Assembly: GCF_018616375.1 (NCBI RefSeq)
Contig: NZ_JAEQBB010000001.1
Span: forward strand, 248,001-312,000
DNA length: 64,000 bases
From: Exiguobacterium sp. J17977
Lineage (GTDB): Bacteria > Bacillota > Bacilli > Exiguobacteriales > Exiguobacteriaceae
Direction: 5' to 3'
Shown here: positions 22,767 to 49,954 of the stretch, one piece after another
Layout: every line of letters begins with the position of its first letter
How positions within the stretch are numbered: the first letter of the stretch is position 1
The notes under the pieces: generated by a model
Database searches by the model: none
Told to the model about the DNA's origin: nothing
Seen by the model: only the letters and a program-made list of their open reading frames with translations
Translations under genes and position numbers: made by a program

Positions 22767-23408
22767 ATGTACGAACGTTTGGTGAAGCGCCCACAAGACG
22801 CAATCCTTGCGATGGTTTCGTTACTTGTCCTAAGCCCTGTTCTTTTGACGATTGCGGGTCTCATCAAGTGGAAGTTCGGGGGACCGGTACTGTTCAAACA
22901 GAAACGTCCCGGCAAGAATGGCGTCATCTTCGAGATGGTGAAATTTCGGACGATGATCGACGAGCGGGATGAACATGGCGAGCTATTGCCGGACGAAGTC
23001 CGTTTGACCCCGTTCGGTCAGACGCTCCGTTCGCTCAGTTTAGATGAGTTGCCGAGTTTACTGAATATCGTCAAAGGCGACATCGCCATCGTCGGACCGC
23101 GCCCGCTGCTCGTCGAGTATTTACCGCGCTATAACGAGGAGCAGCGCCGACGTCACGATGTACGACCCGGTTTGACAGGACTTGCCCAAGTGAACGGCCG
23201 CAATCGGTTATCGTGGGAGGACCGTTTCGCCCTCGACGTGAAATATGTCGACAACGTCACGTTCCTCAATGACTGGAAGATCATCCTTCAGACGGTTGGG
23301 AAAGTCGTTAAGAAGGATGGGATTTCGTCCGATACGGCGGTGACGATGGAGGCGTTTATGGGGGATGAACCTAGGAGAGAACCTCAAAAAGAATTGCACT
23401 TGAGTTAG
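22767..23408 (+). CDS. Initiating sugar-phosphate transferase (PglC/EpsL type)
   Basis: 213 residues. One N-terminal hydrophobic re-entrant helix (about 15-33) is followed by the polyprenol-phosphate glycosylphosphotransferase core: KRPGKNGVIFEMVKFRTM, SLDELPSLLNIVKGDIAIVG, PRPLL and RPGLTGLAQVNGRN. It lacks the extra membrane domains of WbaP, so it is the short monotopic class. It attaches the first sugar-1-phosphate to undecaprenyl phosphate and so starts the repeat unit. It ends the operon; its 3' end forms part of a terminator. An AGGAGGG site precedes the ATG. Confidence 0.93.
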   Translation: MYERLVKRPQDAILAMVSLLVLSPVLLTIAGLIKWKFGGPVLFKQKRPGKNGVIFEMVKFRTMIDERDEHGELLPDEVRLTPFGQTLRSLSLDELPSLLNIVKGDIAIVGPRPLLVEYLPRYNEEQRRRHDVRPGLTGLAQVNGRNRLSWEDRFALDVKYVDNVTFLNDWKIILQTVGKVVKKDGISSDTAVTMEAFMGDEPRREPQKELHLS

Positions 23409-23432
23409 AAAAACTCGGCTGCAATTCTTTTT
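23386..23432. terminator. Long terminator at the end of the polysaccharide operon
   Basis: AAAAAGAATTGCA and TGCAATTCTTTTT are perfect complements. The loop holds the stop codon of the initiating transferase and a nested GAGTT/AACTC stem. It terminates the capE-to-transferase operon. Confidence 0.9.
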
Positions 23433-23473
23433 GTCGTTTTTTGTCATGCTGAATTCACCTGTTCTATAAAAGT

Positions 23474-23500
23474 GAAAAGATAAACATTTGAAGGAGGTGA
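23474..23500 (+). promoter_or_regulatory. Partial copy of shared element plus an orphan Shine-Dalgarno
   Basis: GAAAAGATAAACATTT at 23474-23489 matches the first half of the elements before the wzz-like and capE genes. It is followed directly by AAGGAGGTGA (23491-23500), a perfect ribosome site with no ATG, GTG or TTG at usable distance. The real gene starts 46 bases further at 23547 behind AAAGGCGG. Confidence 0.45.
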
Positions 23501-23546
23501 TATATTTTATAAGGATTTAATTTGAATAGAAAAAGGCGGCAAGAAA

Positions 23547-26500
23547 ATGAGAATCATGAAATCGAAAATCGCTATGCTTACATTCATTATGTGTCTAGTG
23601 ATTGGAACATTTTCGTTCTATCCAATGGGCGAAAGTGTGCACGGAGCAACAACATATAACATTGATCCTTTTAGCAAGGACAGTAAAGTAATTACCGGGC
23701 AAGCAGAGCCAAACACTCAAATCCAGTTAAACGTGGACGGTCAATTAGTGAACCTCCAAACGAATGCGACGGGTCAGTTTTCACATACCCTCACTAGTAA
23801 ACTGACGAGTTCGGATATTCATTTGTATCAAATCACAAAAGAAGGTTATGCGGAGTGGAAGTGGACTGCTTATGCCTCACAAGATGCATCTACTGTCGTT
23901 TATCCGGCGCAATATCTTGGGATTAACACAAGTAGCAACGAAATGAAATTTTCGTCACGAGAAGATCATACGATTGTCGCTGTATATGATGGACGTTCTT
24001 ACAGTGATGTTGGCACCTTATCAATTCCAGTAAAAGCAGCAAAAGAGGTTAAATTCTATACACAGTTTAATGGCAATCGTAGCACTACGATGACTGTTCC
24101 AGACGTGAATGTAAAACCAAATTATCTTTACCAATCAAATCAATTTGGATTTGAGTCAGGTTATCTTTCTGGAAAAACTGTCCCTTATCTAAAGATGAAT
24201 TTAGTAATCAATCAAGAAAAAGAAATTGAACTTTTAGCTGATGAAAATGGAAAGTTTAATACTTACCTATCTTTAACAGAAAACGATGTACTTACAGGTT
24301 TTGAATATAAGATTATTGAACCTTCAACAGGTCGTGAGTTAGTGGGTTCGACAAGTGTAGAACCGTTCCAAGCCTCAGCGGATAACCCGTTCTATTCTGT
24401 AAATGAATTCAGTAGTTATGAATTATATGGATATACATTTGCAAATGCTGAAATCAAAGCAGATGGGCAATTGATTGCTGTCTCAGATGAGATGGGTAGA
24501 ATTTATAACTATATTGAAGCTAATGGTTCGCCAATTCGTACAATTGAAGTATCTAAAAATGGAAAAATCGTCGCTACATTCACACGTGAGATGGCTTTTG
24601 ATTCAAGTCGATTTAAGTTTGACCTTACGAAGCCAATCACTTCTGAGCAAAATGAATTGATAGCAAAGACATACCCTAATCAAACATTTGTCGTACAGTA
24701 TCAAAATCAACATCATGGAGAATTGAAATCAACTTCGGATAATCAAGGGAATCTAAAGCTGATGTTGCCGAAATTTAATTCGGGTTCATTTAACGTCTAT
24801 GTAAATCAGAAGAATGGAGATGGACAACTAGTTAAGACAATTGCGGTAACAGATGAGCGTCCGCTACCAGACCCAATTATTAGAATGATTAACGATAACC
24901 TTTTGATTTTTAGTGATTTTTCGACAACGGAGCAACTTTATGTTGATGTTCAAATCGAGAAAAAGAATGGGGAAATCGAAGTTTATAATGAACCGCTTGT
25001 ATCTAGTAGAAAACCAATTAACAAACTCGAGTTTGGAGACAAATTTAAGACGAGAGTCTATATAAACGAAAATCGAAGCTCGAATTTTGTAGAAGGCATT
25101 TTTGATCCTATTAAAGAACCGACATTTGAAAACTTTTTTGAAGGTGAACAAACGATAAAAGGAAAAACAGAACCGAACGCGACCATTACAATTACTGAAT
25201 ATCAATATGATTCAAACGGTAATTATCTGTCTGATCAAGTCATAAAGTCGGATGCAGGTGGAAATTTCAGCTTTACTAAAAAGTCAAAAGTGGACGTATC
25301 TATAGCTTTTTTAGTCGAGCGAGAAAATAAATTAGATTATGCTAGATTCAGAATCTCTCCTAAAGATATTACACCTCCTAGGTTTAGCTCGGGTTATGCA
25401 AATAAAATTTCTGAAGACGAAAGTGTCATTAAAGTCCACACAGATGACTTGCTAAAAAGTCTTGTCGTTTCATATTTTTCAAATGGAAAAATGATTAAGA
25501 AACAAGATGTCGATGTAACTAAACATGATCGTTTTGATAAAAATGTATATAGTATCACCTTTGAAAATCAGGAGAACAAGACATTAAAAGAATTAGGGAT
25601 TGATAGGATTACCATTGAAGGGGAAAATATATCCGGATTATATGCAGACCCGACCTCATTTGTCGTTAAAGACATGACACCTCCTGATTTAAATGGTTTA
25701 TATCCAAGCTTATATGGAGATCAAGCTATAGAAGGTAAAACAGAGCCATTCGCAAAAATTCATTTCGGTAGTGGTGCTTCAGCTAAACAAACAACTGCGA
25801 ATTCAGATGGGTACTTTAAAGTAGTATTAGATTATCCAATCTCGAGATATTCTAGTCATTTGCGATTGACAATTACTGACTTAGGAAACAATAAGGTTCA
25901 GGACTATCTACGCACAATTGATTACCAAATTGAAGACATTCGAGTTAATCATGATGGGTCTAAAATTTGGTTCGCTAACGAAAATAGAAAGTTGTCTTAC
26001 CGATACTATGAGATTTATGTGAATGGACAAAAATGGGTCGATAGTGAAATGAGATATGGTCAGCAAAGTAGCCTGATTCAAACAACTACTAAGCCTTCAT
26101 TCCCGATGGATGTCAAGATTGTAATGAAAAATCCAGACGGCACGACTAAATATGAACTTTCAAAAAACTTTAGCGGTCCATCGGAGTTAATCGTTCCAAA
26201 TAAACTAGAAGCTTCTAACAACCGAAAGAGTCTTACGGGGTATGCAGACAAATTTACTGCCATCGATGTTTTTGACGCATCCGGAAAAAAAGTCGGCACA
26301 AACCGCGCAGACAAAGATGGAAAGTTTGCGGTCGTCTTGTATCGCTATCCAGTAGCAAACGAAACACTTAAAGTTGTAGCCAAAGATGCATTTGGCGGCA
26401 CTAAAACGTCAACGTTGAAAGTGAAAGATCGTGTGGCTCCAACGAAACCGACCGTCTCGACGCTCACGAACAAGTCGACGTACGTGTCCGGGAAAGCCGA

Positions 26501-26921
26501 GAAAGGCGCGACCGTGTATATCACGTATAACGGACGCACGTACACGACGAAAGCATCGAGTGCGGGTTCATATCGCTACAATGTGAAGACGACAAAGCCT
26601 GGTGTTACCGTCTCGGTGCGCGCGAAAGACGTGGCCGGGAACACGTCGAGCAGTACTTCTGTGAAAGTCCTCAACACGTTCCCGACGTTCACGGTCAACT
26701 CTGTGAAATCGACGGCGACGACGATGACCGGGAAAGGCAATAAAGGAGCAAGCGTCCAGGCATATGTCGGGACGAAGCTTGTCAGCAAGACCGCAAAAGT
26801 GGATTCAAAAGGCAACTACAAGCTGACGATTTCACGTCAGAAACCAGGTGTGGTTGTTACCGTGAAGATGACACAAAGCGGGTATCAAGAAGTGAAGAAG
26901 ACGACACGCATCGTCAAATGA
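23547..26921 (+). CDS. Large secreted Ig-like repeat protein
   Basis: 1124 residues. A signal peptide occupies about 1-33 (ends near VHGATTY). The rest is beta-rich and contains repeated bacterial Ig-like units of the form G.TEPNA.I ... A...G.F (for example VITGQAEPNTQIQL, TIKGKTEPNATITI, AIEGKTEPFAKIHF, YVSGKAEKGATVYI, TMTGKGNKGASVQA). No LPXTG motif, S-layer domain or C-terminal anchor is visible, so it is probably released or held non-covalently. Codon use changes abruptly near 26.43 kb: about 28% GC at 24241-24300 against 58% at 26461-26520 by hand count. The C-terminal units resemble those of the protein at 47216. Role unknown; adhesion or matrix function is a guess. Confidence 0.85.
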   Translation: MRIMKSKIAMLTFIMCLVIGTFSFYPMGESVHGATTYNIDPFSKDSKVITGQAEPNTQIQLNVDGQLVNLQTNATGQFSHTLTSKLTSSDIHLYQITKEGYAEWKWTAYASQDASTVVYPAQYLGINTSSNEMKFSSREDHTIVAVYDGRSYSDVGTLSIPVKAAKEVKFYTQFNGNRSTTMTVPDVNVKPNYLYQSNQFGFESGYLSGKTVPYLKMNLVINQEKEIELLADENGKFNTYLSLTENDVLTGFEYKIIEPSTGRELVGSTSVEPFQASADNPFYSVNEFSSYELYGYTFANAEIKADGQLIAVSDEMGRIYNYIEANGSPIRTIEVSKNGKIVATFTREMAFDSSRFKFDLTKPITSEQNELIAKTYPNQTFVVQYQNQHHGELKSTSDNQGNLKLMLPKFNSGSFNVYVNQKNGDGQLVKTIAVTDERPLPDPIIRMINDNLLIFSDFSTTEQLYVDVQIEKKNGEIEVYNEPLVSSRKPINKLEFGDKFKTRVYINENRSSNFVEGIFDPIKEPTFENFFEGEQTIKGKTEPNATITITEYQYDSNGNYLSDQVIKSDAGGNFSFTKKSKVDVSIAFLVERENKLDYARFRISPKDITPPRFSSGYANKISEDESVIKVHTDDLLKSLVVSYFSNGKMIKKQDVDVTKHDRFDKNVYSITFENQENKTLKELGIDRITIEGENISGLYADPTSFVVKDMTPPDLNGLYPSLYGDQAIEGKTEPFAKIHFGSGASAKQTTANSDGYFKVVLDYPISRYSSHLRLTITDLGNNKVQDYLRTIDYQIEDIRVNHDGSKIWFANENRKLSYRYYEIYVNGQKWVDSEMRYGQQSSLIQTTTKPSFPMDVKIVMKNPDGTTKYELSKNFSGPSELIVPNKLEASNNRKSLTGYADKFTAIDVFDASGKKVGTNRADKDGKFAVVLYRYPVANETLKVVAKDAFGGTKTSTLKVKDRVAPTKPTVSTLTNKSTYVSGKAEKGATVYITYNGRTYTTKASSAGSYRYNVKTTKPGVTVSVRAKDVAGNTSSSTSVKVLNTFPTFTVNSVKSTATTMTGKGNKGASVQAYVGTKLVSKTAKVDSKGNYKLTISRQKPGVVVTVKMTQSGYQEVKKTTRIVK

Positions 26922-26922
26922 A

Positions 26923-26953
26923 GCGAGCGGGCCATGCGGTCCGCTCGTTTTCT
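26923..26953 (+). terminator. Rho-independent terminator
   Basis: GCGAGCGGGCC, loop ATGC, GGTCCGCTCG then TTTTCTT, just after the stop of the Ig-like repeat protein. Confidence 0.85.
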
Positions 26954-46426: not shown

Positions 46427-46483
46427 ATGCGTGTACCGAAGCGTCCCGCCGGAGCCTTGTCCGATGAGCGGGTGGGCCCATGA
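46427..46483 (+). CDS. 18-residue ORF coupled to yvrJ
   Basis: ATG with TTGGAGGAA 8 bases upstream encodes MRVPKRPAGALSDERVGP and stops in an ATGA overlap with the yvrJ start. yvrJ itself has no separate good ribosome site (GGTGGGCCC only), so this ORF may exist to couple its translation. The peptide is basic and not hydrophobic. Confidence 0.5.
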   Translation: MRVPKRPAGALSDERVGP

Positions 46484-46620
46484 GCTGGCCCGAACTCATC
46501 TCGAACCTCGGCTTCCCGATCGTCGTCTCGCTCTATCTGCTCCACCGGATCGAGACGCGTCTTGAGCGCATGATTCAACTGCTCGAACGTCTCGACTCGA
46601 CCTATCCATCTGAATTGTAA
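46480..46620 (+). CDS. yvrJ: YvrJ-family holin-like small membrane protein
   Basis: 46 residues: MSWPELISNLGFPIVVSLYL opens with one membrane span, followed by an amphipathic charged helix (HRIETRLERMIQLLERL). This is the YvrJ family pattern (GFPIV followed by RIE..LE). The start is the ATG overlapping the upstream 18-codon ORF. The function in Bacillus is not established. Confidence 0.82.
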   Translation: MSWPELISNLGFPIVVSLYLLHRIETRLERMIQLLERLDSTYPSEL

Positions 46621-46646
46621 TCCATCCCCGAAAGGAGCCATCCCTC

Positions 46647-46859
46647 ATGGCCGTATTGACTGAAAAGAAAGCCACGCTCGTCTTGACGACGCACCACGAT
46701 TTGAACAGCTTGAAACCGACGAAGAAAACACAGCGCTTCGGTCCGATTCGGGCGGCGCTCACGGCTGACAATGCCGAGGCGTTCGGTCACCTCATGCTCG
46801 ACTTGACCGAGCAAGAAGATTTCACCGTGTCGGTCGTTCGCGAATACGACGTCGTCTAA
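46647..46859 (+). CDS. 70-residue protein, unknown, paralogue of the 46199 product
   Basis: Small soluble protein with a beta-strand-rich start (KKATLVLTTHHDLN) and the shared RFGPI ... VVREYDVV ending. GAAAGGAG precedes the ATG. It may belong near DUF1659, whose members occur with DUF2922 and YvrJ, but this match is uncertain. It is the fourth ORF of the operon. Confidence 0.75.
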   Translation: MAVLTEKKATLVLTTHHDLNSLKPTKKTQRFGPIRAALTADNAEAFGHLMLDLTEQEDFTVSVVREYDVV

Positions 46860-46888
46860 TCACACCCACATCCAAGGAGGACTAACCC

Positions 46889-47101
46889 ATGACTGAGACT
46901 AAAGTAGAAATCGCATTTTTGGATATGTTCAATAAAGTATCGCGCTTCCGTTTGAATAACGTGAAACAACCGGTCGATGCGTTGAAAGTGCAAGCGCTCG
47001 CCGACTTCATGGTCGCCAACGACCCGCTCGGCAAGAGCGTCGTCAAATGGACGGAGATCAAGATGATTGAAGGCACGCAGACCGTGTTGAACGTTCAATA
47101 A
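46889..47101 (+). CDS. DUF2922-like small protein
   Basis: 70 residues. The pattern (VEIAFLDMFNKVSRFRLNNV ... VDALKVQALADFMVANDPL ... EIKMIEGTQTVLNV) resembles DUF2922: two strands, one helix and a final strand. CAAGGAGGA precedes the ATG. It is the last gene of the operon, with a terminator 6 bases after the stop. Function unknown. Confidence 0.75.
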   Translation: MTETKVEIAFLDMFNKVSRFRLNNVKQPVDALKVQALADFMVANDPLGKSVVKWTEIKMIEGTQTVLNVQ

Positions 47102-47106
47102 TCCAA

Positions 47107-47143
47107 AAGGCATCGTCTCTTAGAAAAGAGACGGTGCTTTTTT
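47107..47143 (+). terminator. Terminator of the tiny-ORF operon
   Basis: GCATCGTCTCTT, loop AGAA, AAGAGACGGTGC and six T. Confidence 0.92.
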
Positions 47144-47215
47144 CCTGTTATTCTTCTAAAAATCACAAATTGAAGGTATATTTAAAATATATTGAATAAA
47201 AGGCAGGTATTGTAA

Positions 47216-49954
47216 ATGAAGAAATGGCACTATTTACTCTTATTCGTCGCACTGCTGTTCGTGATGTTCCCGGTGGGTCAAGTGAGTGCGACACCGAAGT
47301 TCGAGCTGGGCACGCTACTCGAACAAGAAGCAAAGACGATTGAAGGGTCCCCGTTCTATTTGGATTATCAAGATGGATTCACACGACTGCATGATGTAAA
47401 ACGGCAAACCGTCGTTCCAATCGATTTTAATGACAATCTGACGGCGAATCGGTCGTATGATGAAGATGGGGCGTATGGAGATTTCTACACGTTCGAGCCG
47501 AGCCTAGATGGTGAAGCGTTCATGGCGACACATCATCGGACCGGGGACATGATTCATGTTAATCGTGATGGGTCGACGCGTACATTCAGCCCTCCATTCG
47601 ACACAGAATCGATTCGACTCATCACGTATGATGTGAGTCGTGACATGATGATTTGGGAAAACGAGACGACAGGTCAATGGATGATGACCGATTTGAATGG
47701 TGCCACGACGTGGGTTCGCGACCGTTCGAGTTGGGAACAAATCATCTTGGCGACAAACAGTGACGAAATCGTCGTCACCAATACTAATTTGGGCGTGTTA
47801 CTTCGTCTTGATGTCGCGACTGGTGAGACAATTGAGACAATCGAAATTTCGAACGATCGAGCGAAGGTATTTGTTGAACCGTTGACAGACCATCTTCTGT
47901 TGGAAGGATCGTCGGATATTCATATGTACGACATGACGAAACAGACGATTACGAAATTAAAGGTGAATGCCTATTATCTGAGGAGTTTCGAATCGCTAAA
48001 TTATCACGACGGTGTTTACTACGCGATGACCAGTTCAAGTCACATGGTTACCATCGATTTGACGACGAACATCGTGCGACAGTTTGATTTAGATCCGTCA
48101 AATCGCTGGTATGAGTACGAGGCGATGCAAGAAGGATACATGATTCAAAACGGGGAGCGCCTATTCCCGATGTCACGCTTCCATCTCATCCCGGTAGGAA
48201 TCTCGACATCACTGAAAGCGGTGGATGCCTCTGGTGATGCCAACTATTGGTTAGGCGAGTCGTATCAATTGATGGCGACGGTGACGACGCTAGATGAAGT
48301 CCGCCATACCATCCCTGTTTCCGACTTGGGTCCAGACGCGGAGGTGCTTTATGCGACGCGTTCATTCGATGAGGGATATATTGTTCCATCGTTCGATGAG
48401 TCATTCAGTTATGCGGTTCGATTCGGAAAACTCACAAGCAGCAGGGTCACCTTGAATCCGGTGACGAAAGTGCCGCTTCAAATCGATACGTCGTTTACCA
48501 ACGGACCGGTCGGTGAGATTACAGGTACGACTTCGCCAAACATGACGGTGTATGTGACATGTGAAAACAACAAATACGCGAGCTGTGACGGATCAGTCAC
48601 GGCCGATGAGACAGGACGTTTCACATTCTCACGCGGCATTCTCTGGGGAAATCAAACCATCACGGTTTGGGCGGCAGACAATGCGACGTATAACCAAGCC
48701 ACAAAAGCATCGGTCAAGCAAACGTTCCAAATGAACGAACCGACCGAGACAAACATCGCCGAAGTGTTGACCGAGACGGCGATGGAAGGTGTGACGATTC
48801 GTACGAAACCAAATGTCCGAGTCGAAGTGCGTCAATTATTCTCACCGACAAACTTTGAAGTTCGTGAAGTCCAGGCGGACGCGACGGGAGTCGCGAAGCT
48901 GACCGAATACAATCGGGACAAGCCGATGTATTATCGTGTCATCTATCGCATTCTCGACACGAACAGTCCATACGCGAACCTATACGTCTCAAAAGACTAT
49001 CCAATCCCTGACGTCACGTGGACAAAACCACCGAAAACAGGTGACACGACGCTCACAATTCATAACGGGACGCTTGCGCCAATGGTCGCGGTATACCGGA
49101 ACGGGAGAGTGGAGACATCGAAACGACTCGTGCTCGGGACGAACGTCATCACGTTGAAAGAACCGCTCTGGGAAGGACAGACGATTCGGATGGTCGCCAG
49201 TTTCCGTCCGGAACTTAGTAAAACGTTCGAACAAATCGTGACGAGTGACATGCCGAAGACACACAGCATCAAAGATGTGCTCGTCACATCCTCCACTTCG
49301 ACGTTTACGGTGTTGAAAGATGCGAAAGCTTACGTCCATTTTTACGTGAATGGACGTCAGTTGCCGCATACGGAAGTCGGGAAAGACCGCTACCGGATCT
49401 CGGTGAAACCTGGCATGCCGGTCGTCGTCGAGTCGTCAATCGGGTCGAAGAAGAAGCGGACGACGTACAAAATCCCGACAGCTTCGCTGACGTCGTTCGC
49501 CCCGTCTGACGAAGTGAGCACGTGGAGTGGGAAGACATTGCCGAACGCAACGGTCACCGTCAAGGCCGGGACGAAAGTGATTGGCCGCACGACGGTGAAC
49601 TCGACCGGCAGCTATCAAGTGAAGTTCACCCGTCAGCGTGCGGGTACGAAGCTTGTGTTCGAGGCGAAAGTCGGAGTGGCCCGTGACGCGAAGAGCGCCA
49701 CCGTCAAAGCAGGGGTCCGCCCGACGGTGAGCACCGGCACGATTCGCTCGACGACGAAATCGATCGCCGTTCGCACGAACGTCCCGTACGGTACGGTGAC
49801 GATTTATAATGGTAAGACGCTCGTCGCGAAGAAGACGATCACATCGACTTCGACGAACGTGTCCATCAAACCGCAAAAACGGGGCTCGAAGTTGACGATT
49901 ACAGTCGTGACGCCGGCCAACCGAAGCGGCCAGACCGTTAAGACCGTTTTATGA
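47216..49954 (+). CDS. Large secreted protein: propeller-like region plus Ig-like repeats
   Basis: 912 residues with a signal peptide (about 1-25, ending VSATP). Residues about 30-370 contain repeating four-strand units (such as MIHVNRDGSTRTFSPP, LLRLDVATGETIETIEI and IHMYDMTKQTITKLKV), suggesting a beta-propeller. From about 420 onward are Ig-like units with G.T.PN.TV and A...G...F signatures, ending in two well-kept repeats (WSGKTLPNATVTVKAGTKV ...). The C-terminal units resemble those of the protein at 23547. No sorting signal or S-layer anchor is seen. Surface or matrix role inferred only. Confidence 0.82.
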   Translation: MKKWHYLLLFVALLFVMFPVGQVSATPKFELGTLLEQEAKTIEGSPFYLDYQDGFTRLHDVKRQTVVPIDFNDNLTANRSYDEDGAYGDFYTFEPSLDGEAFMATHHRTGDMIHVNRDGSTRTFSPPFDTESIRLITYDVSRDMMIWENETTGQWMMTDLNGATTWVRDRSSWEQIILATNSDEIVVTNTNLGVLLRLDVATGETIETIEISNDRAKVFVEPLTDHLLLEGSSDIHMYDMTKQTITKLKVNAYYLRSFESLNYHDGVYYAMTSSSHMVTIDLTTNIVRQFDLDPSNRWYEYEAMQEGYMIQNGERLFPMSRFHLIPVGISTSLKAVDASGDANYWLGESYQLMATVTTLDEVRHTIPVSDLGPDAEVLYATRSFDEGYIVPSFDESFSYAVRFGKLTSSRVTLNPVTKVPLQIDTSFTNGPVGEITGTTSPNMTVYVTCENNKYASCDGSVTADETGRFTFSRGILWGNQTITVWAADNATYNQATKASVKQTFQMNEPTETNIAEVLTETAMEGVTIRTKPNVRVEVRQLFSPTNFEVREVQADATGVAKLTEYNRDKPMYYRVIYRILDTNSPYANLYVSKDYPIPDVTWTKPPKTGDTTLTIHNGTLAPMVAVYRNGRVETSKRLVLGTNVITLKEPLWEGQTIRMVASFRPELSKTFEQIVTSDMPKTHSIKDVLVTSSTSTFTVLKDAKAYVHFYVNGRQLPHTEVGKDRYRISVKPGMPVVVESSIGSKKKRTTYKIPTASLTSFAPSDEVSTWSGKTLPNATVTVKAGTKVIGRTTVNSTGSYQVKFTRQRAGTKLVFEAKVGVARDAKSATVKAGVRPTVSTGTIRSTTKSIAVRTNVPYGTVTIYNGKTLVAKKTITSTSTNVSIKPQKRGSKLTITVVTPANRSGQTVKTVL

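Follow-up and report, generated by a model that had tools for sequence, protein, structure and literature searches.

A modular Ig-domain protein gene of Exiguobacterium with an internal composition break, a mosaic mature part, and a conserved orphan Shine-Dalgarno sequence

We analyzed a 64,000-nucleotide stretch of the genome of Exiguobacterium sp. J17977 (contig NZ_JAEQBB010000001.1, positions 248,001 to 312,000; hereafter, the window), in which an open reading frame (ORF) on the forward strand (window positions 23547 to 26921) encodes a protein of 1124 amino acids. The gene is modular, consisting of a near-invariant 5' block, an AT-rich mosaic mature part, and a C-terminal module of host composition. 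Our preferred reading, held with moderate confidence, is that it is an accessory gene for a secreted Bap-like immunoglobulin (Ig)-domain protein, with a mature part that has been recombined between conserved ends, a leader resembling a stabilizing Shine-Dalgarno element (STAB-SD), and losses by deletion. Its features suggest a surface gene of some age that has undergone recombination, not one freshly spliced together. The locus was compared among three gene-bearing genomes, one per species (G000, which carries the window; G017, i.e., Exiguobacterium sp. s146; and G011), and orthologs were sought in 19 genomes of the genus.

A preliminary description of the locus had reported a G+C-poor first part of the gene and a break to G+C-rich sequence near 26.43 kb. 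Its counts per 60 bases (i.e., 17 G+C at 24241 and 35 at 26461) proved exact on recount, and the break itself was recovered by a change-point analysis of the G+C content at third codon positions (GC3). The GC3 level rises from 0.30 to 0.67 at codon 965 (~26.44 kb), with a log-likelihood ratio of 39.8 versus a maximum of 7.6 in 300 shuffles. The control set comprised the 38 ORFs of at least 250 amino acids in the window, which were called mechanically without curation and are largely nonoverlapping. The median GC3 of these ORFs is 0.68; thus, the C-terminal part of the gene is host-like, while its first 960 codons are not. The second strongest change-point of the set lies in the ORF at window positions 47216 to 49954 (0.56 to 0.77 at codon 723; log-likelihood ratio, 14.4).

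Full-length orthologs were found in G017 (78% identity) and G011 (70%), where they have the same neighbors as the window gene, the same locus, and a similar length. Their GC3 change-points fall at codons 953 and 961, respectively (ratios of 55.9 and 27.1 versus shuffle maxima of 8.7 and 10.7), i.e., within 12 codons of that of the window gene. Since the same step is present in both, the chimera is older than these species or has spread among them. The preliminary description had proposed that foreign DNA replaced the N-terminal part by recombination. The modularity of the protein and the mosaicism of its N-terminal part between species speak for that proposal, but a replacement in the window strain alone is contradicted, because both ortholog-bearing species share the full-length gene and its composition step; this is largely the outcome that the description itself had named in advance as counting against it.

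The C terminus is a separate module that is also present on otherwise different proteins. The last 165 residues are 68 to 71% identical to the C termini of proteins of 1391, 1480, and 1484 amino acids from three further species (G006, G005, and G004, respectively); with all three orthologs as queries, the identity to these giants is 68 to 72%. The giants gave no blastp match before residue 937 at an E value of 1e-5, and the composition break (codons 953 to 965) nearly coincides with this homology border (937 to 961). Five full-length homologs (28 to 33% identity overall and 43 to 51% in the C terminus) occur in G014, G008, G004, G005, and G006. The G008 and G005 homologs lie on the same contig as the DsbA-like gene that follows the gene in the window, at distances of ~200 kb and ~134 kb; those of G004 and G006 are on contigs other than that of the DsbA-like gene, and that of G014 opens another contig.

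The leader of the gene contains a perfect Shine-Dalgarno sequence (SD), AAGGAGGTGA at 23491, which the preliminary description had correctly noted to lack a normally spaced start: no ATG, GTG, or TTG occurs 3 to 15 nt after its GGAGG, and this stretch is the same in all three species. The genome holds 10 perfect copies of AAGGAGGTGA, 8 of which have a start codon 5 to 9 nt downstream, the spacing expected of a functional SD; the only other copy without one 3 to 15 nt downstream is at positions 25104 to 25113 of contig C27 (L110). The gene has a likely working ribosome-binding site (RBS) of its own in the AAGGCGG 7 nt before its ATG (Table 1). The predicted RNA start is near 23477, ~14 nt ahead of the orphan SD. 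The promoter-like element upstream was not among the matches of a promoter scan, which demands T as the final base of the -10 box. Across the 110 bases from 23437 to 23546, pairwise comparison of the three genomes gives 0, 1, and 1 differences, whereas the divergence across species is 12 to 20% in the two neighboring genes and in the spacer that precedes the DsbA-like gene. The orphan SD therefore does not resemble a decaying remnant, which runs counter to the earlier proposal that it was left over from an old start. The sole variable base (23523) changes TTG at 23522 to TCG in G011, which thereby loses the only ordinary start codon in the interval from the SD to the ATG. A 25-base core of the leader, searched with up to 3 mismatches in the genus genomes, occurs once each in G000, G017, and G011 and in 0 of the 16 others. 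The leader is not notably structured (z score, +1.19), and Rfam returned for it only three microRNA hairpin matches, far below gathering scores and located over the terminator hairpin. A putative STAB-SD, which would stabilize the 5' end of the mRNA, is the best reading of the orphan SD.

It is possible, if rather doubtful, that the leader is instead a functionless relic of recombination and that the block from 23437 to 23651 was recently exchanged between species together with the gene. Synonymous sites in the signal peptide vary about as little as the leader does (synonymous divergence [dS] of 0 to 0.09 in the first 35 codons), and other windows of low dS exist in the gene (residues 276 to 335 and 936 to 995 of the G000/G017 pair). 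However, three near-identical pairs would require at least two exchanges at one place, and the block holds a likely promoter and a likely RBS, both of which need to work.

Between its conserved ends, the gene diverges as a mosaic. In a three-way DNA alignment of G000, G017, and G011 scored in 300-base windows, the identity is 85 to 98% from 22.9 kb to the gene start, drops to 58 to 71% in stretches of the mature part, and is back at 82 to 93% from ~26.2 kb; at both gene ends it is 82 to 98%. The G000/G017 pair is 83 to 93% identical up to ~24.8 kb and 58 to 64% identical near 25.2 to 25.5 kb, and from ~25.3 kb up to ~26.3 kb the closer pair becomes G017/G011. The sites shared by two of the three genomes likewise shift along the gene from G000=G017 to G017=G011 (maximum chi-square, 106), a value matched by 0 of 2000 shuffles (largest, 31). 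At the protein level, residues 1 to 35 of G011 and G017 are 91 to 100% identical to the window protein, residues 576 to 695 are 45 to 48% identical, and residues 936 to 995 are 98 to 100% identical. A variable region of at least 70 amino acids thus lies between conserved regions, as in segmentally variable genes, an assignment made here from residue identities.

The synonymous sites follow the same pattern. The dS is 0.58 to 0.77 in the two flanking genes. In comparisons with G011, it ranges from 0.79 to saturated across residues 96 to 875 in both pairs. Across residues 516 to 935, it is 0.77 to saturated in 17 of 21 pair-windows, including those of the G000/G017 pair, and in residues 936 to 1115 it is 0.09 to 0.70 across all pairs. 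Since fast protein change alone would leave synonymous divergence unraised, allele exchange is the better reading. An unlikely alternative without exchange invokes one ancestral chimera followed by fast vertical divergence under diversifying selection, with the AT-richness arising from codon or regulatory needs of the gene itself. Among the genomes searched, homologs of the N-terminal part were found only in this family, and they have a lower G+C content than most flanks; the middle of the protein shows much amino acid change, and the G000/G017 dS in residues 36 to 395 does not, for the most part, exceed that of the flanks, as such a history would have it. However, in residues 516 to 755 the dS is far above that of the flanks in all three pairs (except for one window at 0.79 to 0.82), an excess that protein-level selection by itself does not produce, and the closest species pair changes along the gene.

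Two further explanations fare worse. A recent swap of the N-terminal 2.9 kb into this strain alone, with the orphan SD as a dead former start, is very improbable; it agrees with the sharp GC3 step and the modular C terminus, and an ATA located 4 nt after the GGAGG in the main frame makes a lost ATG start imaginable, but two other species share the full-length gene and step (which largely refutes it), the SD and the ATA are invariant in three species, and a TGA stop separates the ATA from the ATG in the window and G017 (CGA in G011). Least probable is a short upstream ORF that is served by the orphan SD and controls the main gene: the TTG at 23522 is preceded by AAGGA, and rare ATA or ATT codons stand 4 to 6 nt after the GGAGG, but a start at this TTG was rejected because it reads TCG in G011, and the only correctly spaced starts after the SD are these rare noncanonical codons.

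Three close relatives (G007, G008, and G015) do not have the gene at this site, and their matches to the transferase and DsbA-like genes are ~140 to 160 bp apart; in G014, another sequence occupies the site. In G007, the sequence following the transferase gene agrees with the final 22 bases of the Ig-protein gene at 20 of 22 positions (G017 and G011) or 19 of 22 (window), and this junction leads into the same terminator as the gene end. The probable terminator hairpin upstream of the gene is present in G017 and G011 and in a similar form in G014 but was missed by a terminator scan with its loop and G-C rules; inspection by eye showed no such hairpin at the empty sites of G007, G008, and G015. 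In a tree built on a 2085-base core of rpoB, gene-bearing and empty genomes are interleaved and the gene-bearing genomes do not form one clade; the inner forks are weak (support of 82), and G011 plus G015 (94/89) are split from the G000 group (95/93). The empty sites most probably reflect losses by deletion, and transfer between species could alternatively account for the distribution of the gene.

Within the order, at least 11 of 38 genomes had matches to the N-terminal part, and all of these belong to one family; in the sister genus, at least 3 of 19 genomes had matches, one of which was marginal (E value, 9.2e-4). These counts are lower bounds, and one plasmid relative (46434 to 49811, below) is absent from them. 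Also in the sister genus, the Exiguobacterium acetylicum plasmid NZ_CP081879.1 (mobilizable, MOBP) carries two full-length relatives (46434 to 49811 and 77797 to 81159), G033 has a similar gene in a like setting on a 111-kb contig, and a further member (L111) lies in a stretch of 34% G+C content beside sugar-nucleotide genes (the labels are putative for the latter two). These relatives are only 22 to 28% identical to the window protein, and no donor allele was found. A pool that is partly mobile and partly AT-rich exists inside the family. The first plasmid relative lies near HNH, McrC, and AAA genes, and the second lies near dcm and genes for a very short patch repair endonuclease, an SNF2-related protein, and ParA; the plasmid-borne Ig-domain relatives sit among restriction- and defense-like genes. 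A phage origin is not supported, with matches in 6 of 50,697 phage records, all partial and none covering 80% of the query. Among the matches listed in the open-licence PMC literature on Exiguobacterium surface proteins and plasmids, there was no published account of the gene.

Several observations weigh against our preferred reading. The sample of gene-bearing genomes is three, each from a different species. The G000/G017 dS in residues 36 to 515 is 0.13 to 0.93, with 5 of 8 windows at or below the flanks, and the G017/G011 dS in residues 876 to 935 is 0.34. The low G000/G017 values over the first half are compatible with a stretch that is shared or was recently exchanged; since dS is not high there, our confidence in the main explanation is slightly lowered. 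No donor emerged from an even draw of 398 genomes of the phylum (up to two candidates scored per listed genome); the N-terminal part matched only its own genome and none of the 397 others. The full-length homologs have a G+C content of 0.43 to 0.51, below that of the measured flanks except for the downstream flank in G006, and the G014 homolog has its own GC3 rise toward the C terminus; low G+C content may be a family trait and not a mark of import. The hairpin just upstream of the leader is also close between species (2 to 6 differences in 56 bases), and the invariance of the leader could come from a recent exchange of the 5' end, of which the near-invariant signal-peptide synonymous sites would be a part. 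At the empty sites, the G008 junction matches in the same register at only 15 to 16 of 22 bases, and the G015 junction is different, without a matching scar. Finally, in a tree of 14 C termini, several rows of which are long, the giants do not stand beside the window group with support.

If recombination of the mature part between conserved ends is nevertheless accepted, homologous recombination between these ends would repeatedly swap stretches of the mature part among alleles of the Exiguobacterium family, and the AT-rich pool (i.e., polysaccharide loci and plasmids) would perhaps supply them; the gene would also be lost by deletion. The C-terminal module may hold the protein at the envelope or matrix, with the variable part responsible for binding. 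The orphan SD would bind ribosomes and so shield the 5' end of the mRNA without starting translation, and translation would initiate from the AAGGCGG at 23533. Quite tentatively, and with doubt prevailing, we also raise a cassette-exchange site, in which an invariant expression block (promoter, stabilizing SD, and signal peptide) and the shared C-terminal anchor would serve as homology arms, and AT-rich matrix-protein bodies would be swapped from a pool of mobilizable plasmids and polysaccharide loci in step with changes in the neighboring polysaccharide operon.

Table 1. Features of the gene and its upstream region (window coordinates)
Feature	Coordinates	Strand	Remarks
Hairpin with T-run, probable terminator	23386..23432	+	Overlaps the end of the sugar-transferase (WcaJ-like) ORF; read from sequence
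Promoter-like TTGTCA-N18-TATAAA, predicted	23441..23470	+	Invariant in three species
Orphan perfect Shine-Dalgarno AAGGAGGTGA, proposed STAB-SD	23491..23500	+	
AAGGCGG, likely working RBS	23533..23539	+	7 nt before ATG; invariant in three species
Signal-peptide-like first 35 codons	23547..23651	+	0 to 5 of 105 differences between species; helix 5-19 predicted, low-confidence stretch
AT-rich mature N-terminal part, chain of Ig-like domains	23652..26400	+	Mosaic; stretches highly divergent between species
GC-rich C-terminal module, ~164 amino acids, Big_6 domains	26427..26918	+	Host-like codon usage; common to otherwise different longer proteins
Gene 3' end and terminator	26900..26951	+	Last 22 bases of the gene versus the G007 empty-site junction, 19/22

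The product would most naturally be a secreted matrix or surface protein. It matches the Pfam family Big_6 in six stretches (E value, 2.1e-43; 146.9 bits versus a cut-off of 27.6), and a match to RHS_repeat was below the cut-off. Sequence-profile matches in the Protein Data Bank (PDB) were to Bap chains only (7dm0 and 6m3a; E value for 7dm0, 4.3e-20). The top ranks of a fold search were generic chains of Ig-like domains, and the Bap C region (7dm0) was at rank 42 (29% identity; template modeling [TM] score by target length, 0.67). AlphaFold2 predicts a chain of beta domains (mean predicted local distance difference test score [pLDDT], 77), of which the arrangement is unreliable given a predicted TM score (pTM) of 0.36. 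An LPxTG anchor is a feature of Bap; this protein has neither an LPxTG nor an NPxT[GN] sorting signal and is not classed as Bap.

The gene sits between an exopolysaccharide operon that ends in a priming sugar transferase gene and an ica/pga-type poly-N-acetylglucosamine operon. Among the neighbors, NCBIfam matches were above the cut-off for a dTDP-glucose dehydratase, PgaC/IcaA, and a nucleotide-sugar dehydrogenase and below it for an exopolysaccharide priming transferase and an IcaB-like deacetylase. The adjoining 214-amino-acid protein has no NCBIfam match at 1e-10, its DsbA-like label coming from a CxxC motif only. Upstream of ~22.6 kb, G011 shares the exopolysaccharide operon with the window (75 to 94% DNA identity), and G017 aligns at 44 to 56% only, indicating different genes or a different order; the polysaccharide locus changes immediately beside the Ig-protein gene.

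More generally, the locus illustrates that an abrupt change of composition within a gene can trace back to a long-standing boundary between modules and to repeated exchange, and not to one recent event. It also makes an environmental bacterium available for the joint study of variation in a matrix protein, variation in a polysaccharide locus, and a conserved leader that resembles a stabilizer. Should the leader prove to be a STAB-SD, this type of control would be extended to an Exiguobacterium surface gene. In the STAB-SD of cry3A, as described in section 3.2 of PMC4113751, an SD located close to the 5' end of the mRNA binds the 30S subunit and blocks RNase J1. The present leader likewise has a perfect SD without a start codon, which would lie near the mRNA 5' end; unlike in the cry3A case, this 5' end is only a predicted one, and 30S binding and stabilization are putative. 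By both sequence and fold, the Ig domains of the C terminus have matches in the Bap C region (PDB 7dm0 and 6m3a); unlike in Bap, LPxTG is lacking, and the sequence matches listed included none between the N-terminal part and Bap chains. The rhs genes with exchangeable tips (PMC2935791) also combine conserved and variable parts with distinct G+C signatures, and their exchange by homologous recombination is limited to relatives. However, in rhs genes it is the C-terminal tip that varies and displaced tips stay downstream, whereas here the N-terminal part varies, and no displaced fragment was seen among the annotated neighbors, without a dedicated search. Compared with the segmentally variable genes of PMC387263, which are reported to show no significant general difference in G+C content between variable and conserved segments, the difference here is large and was seen in three orthologs; the variable segment of at least 70 amino acids between conserved segments and the mosaic pattern are shared. 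The gene belongs to this known class of segmentally variable surface genes; its composition border is unusually clear, and its orphan SD is conserved.

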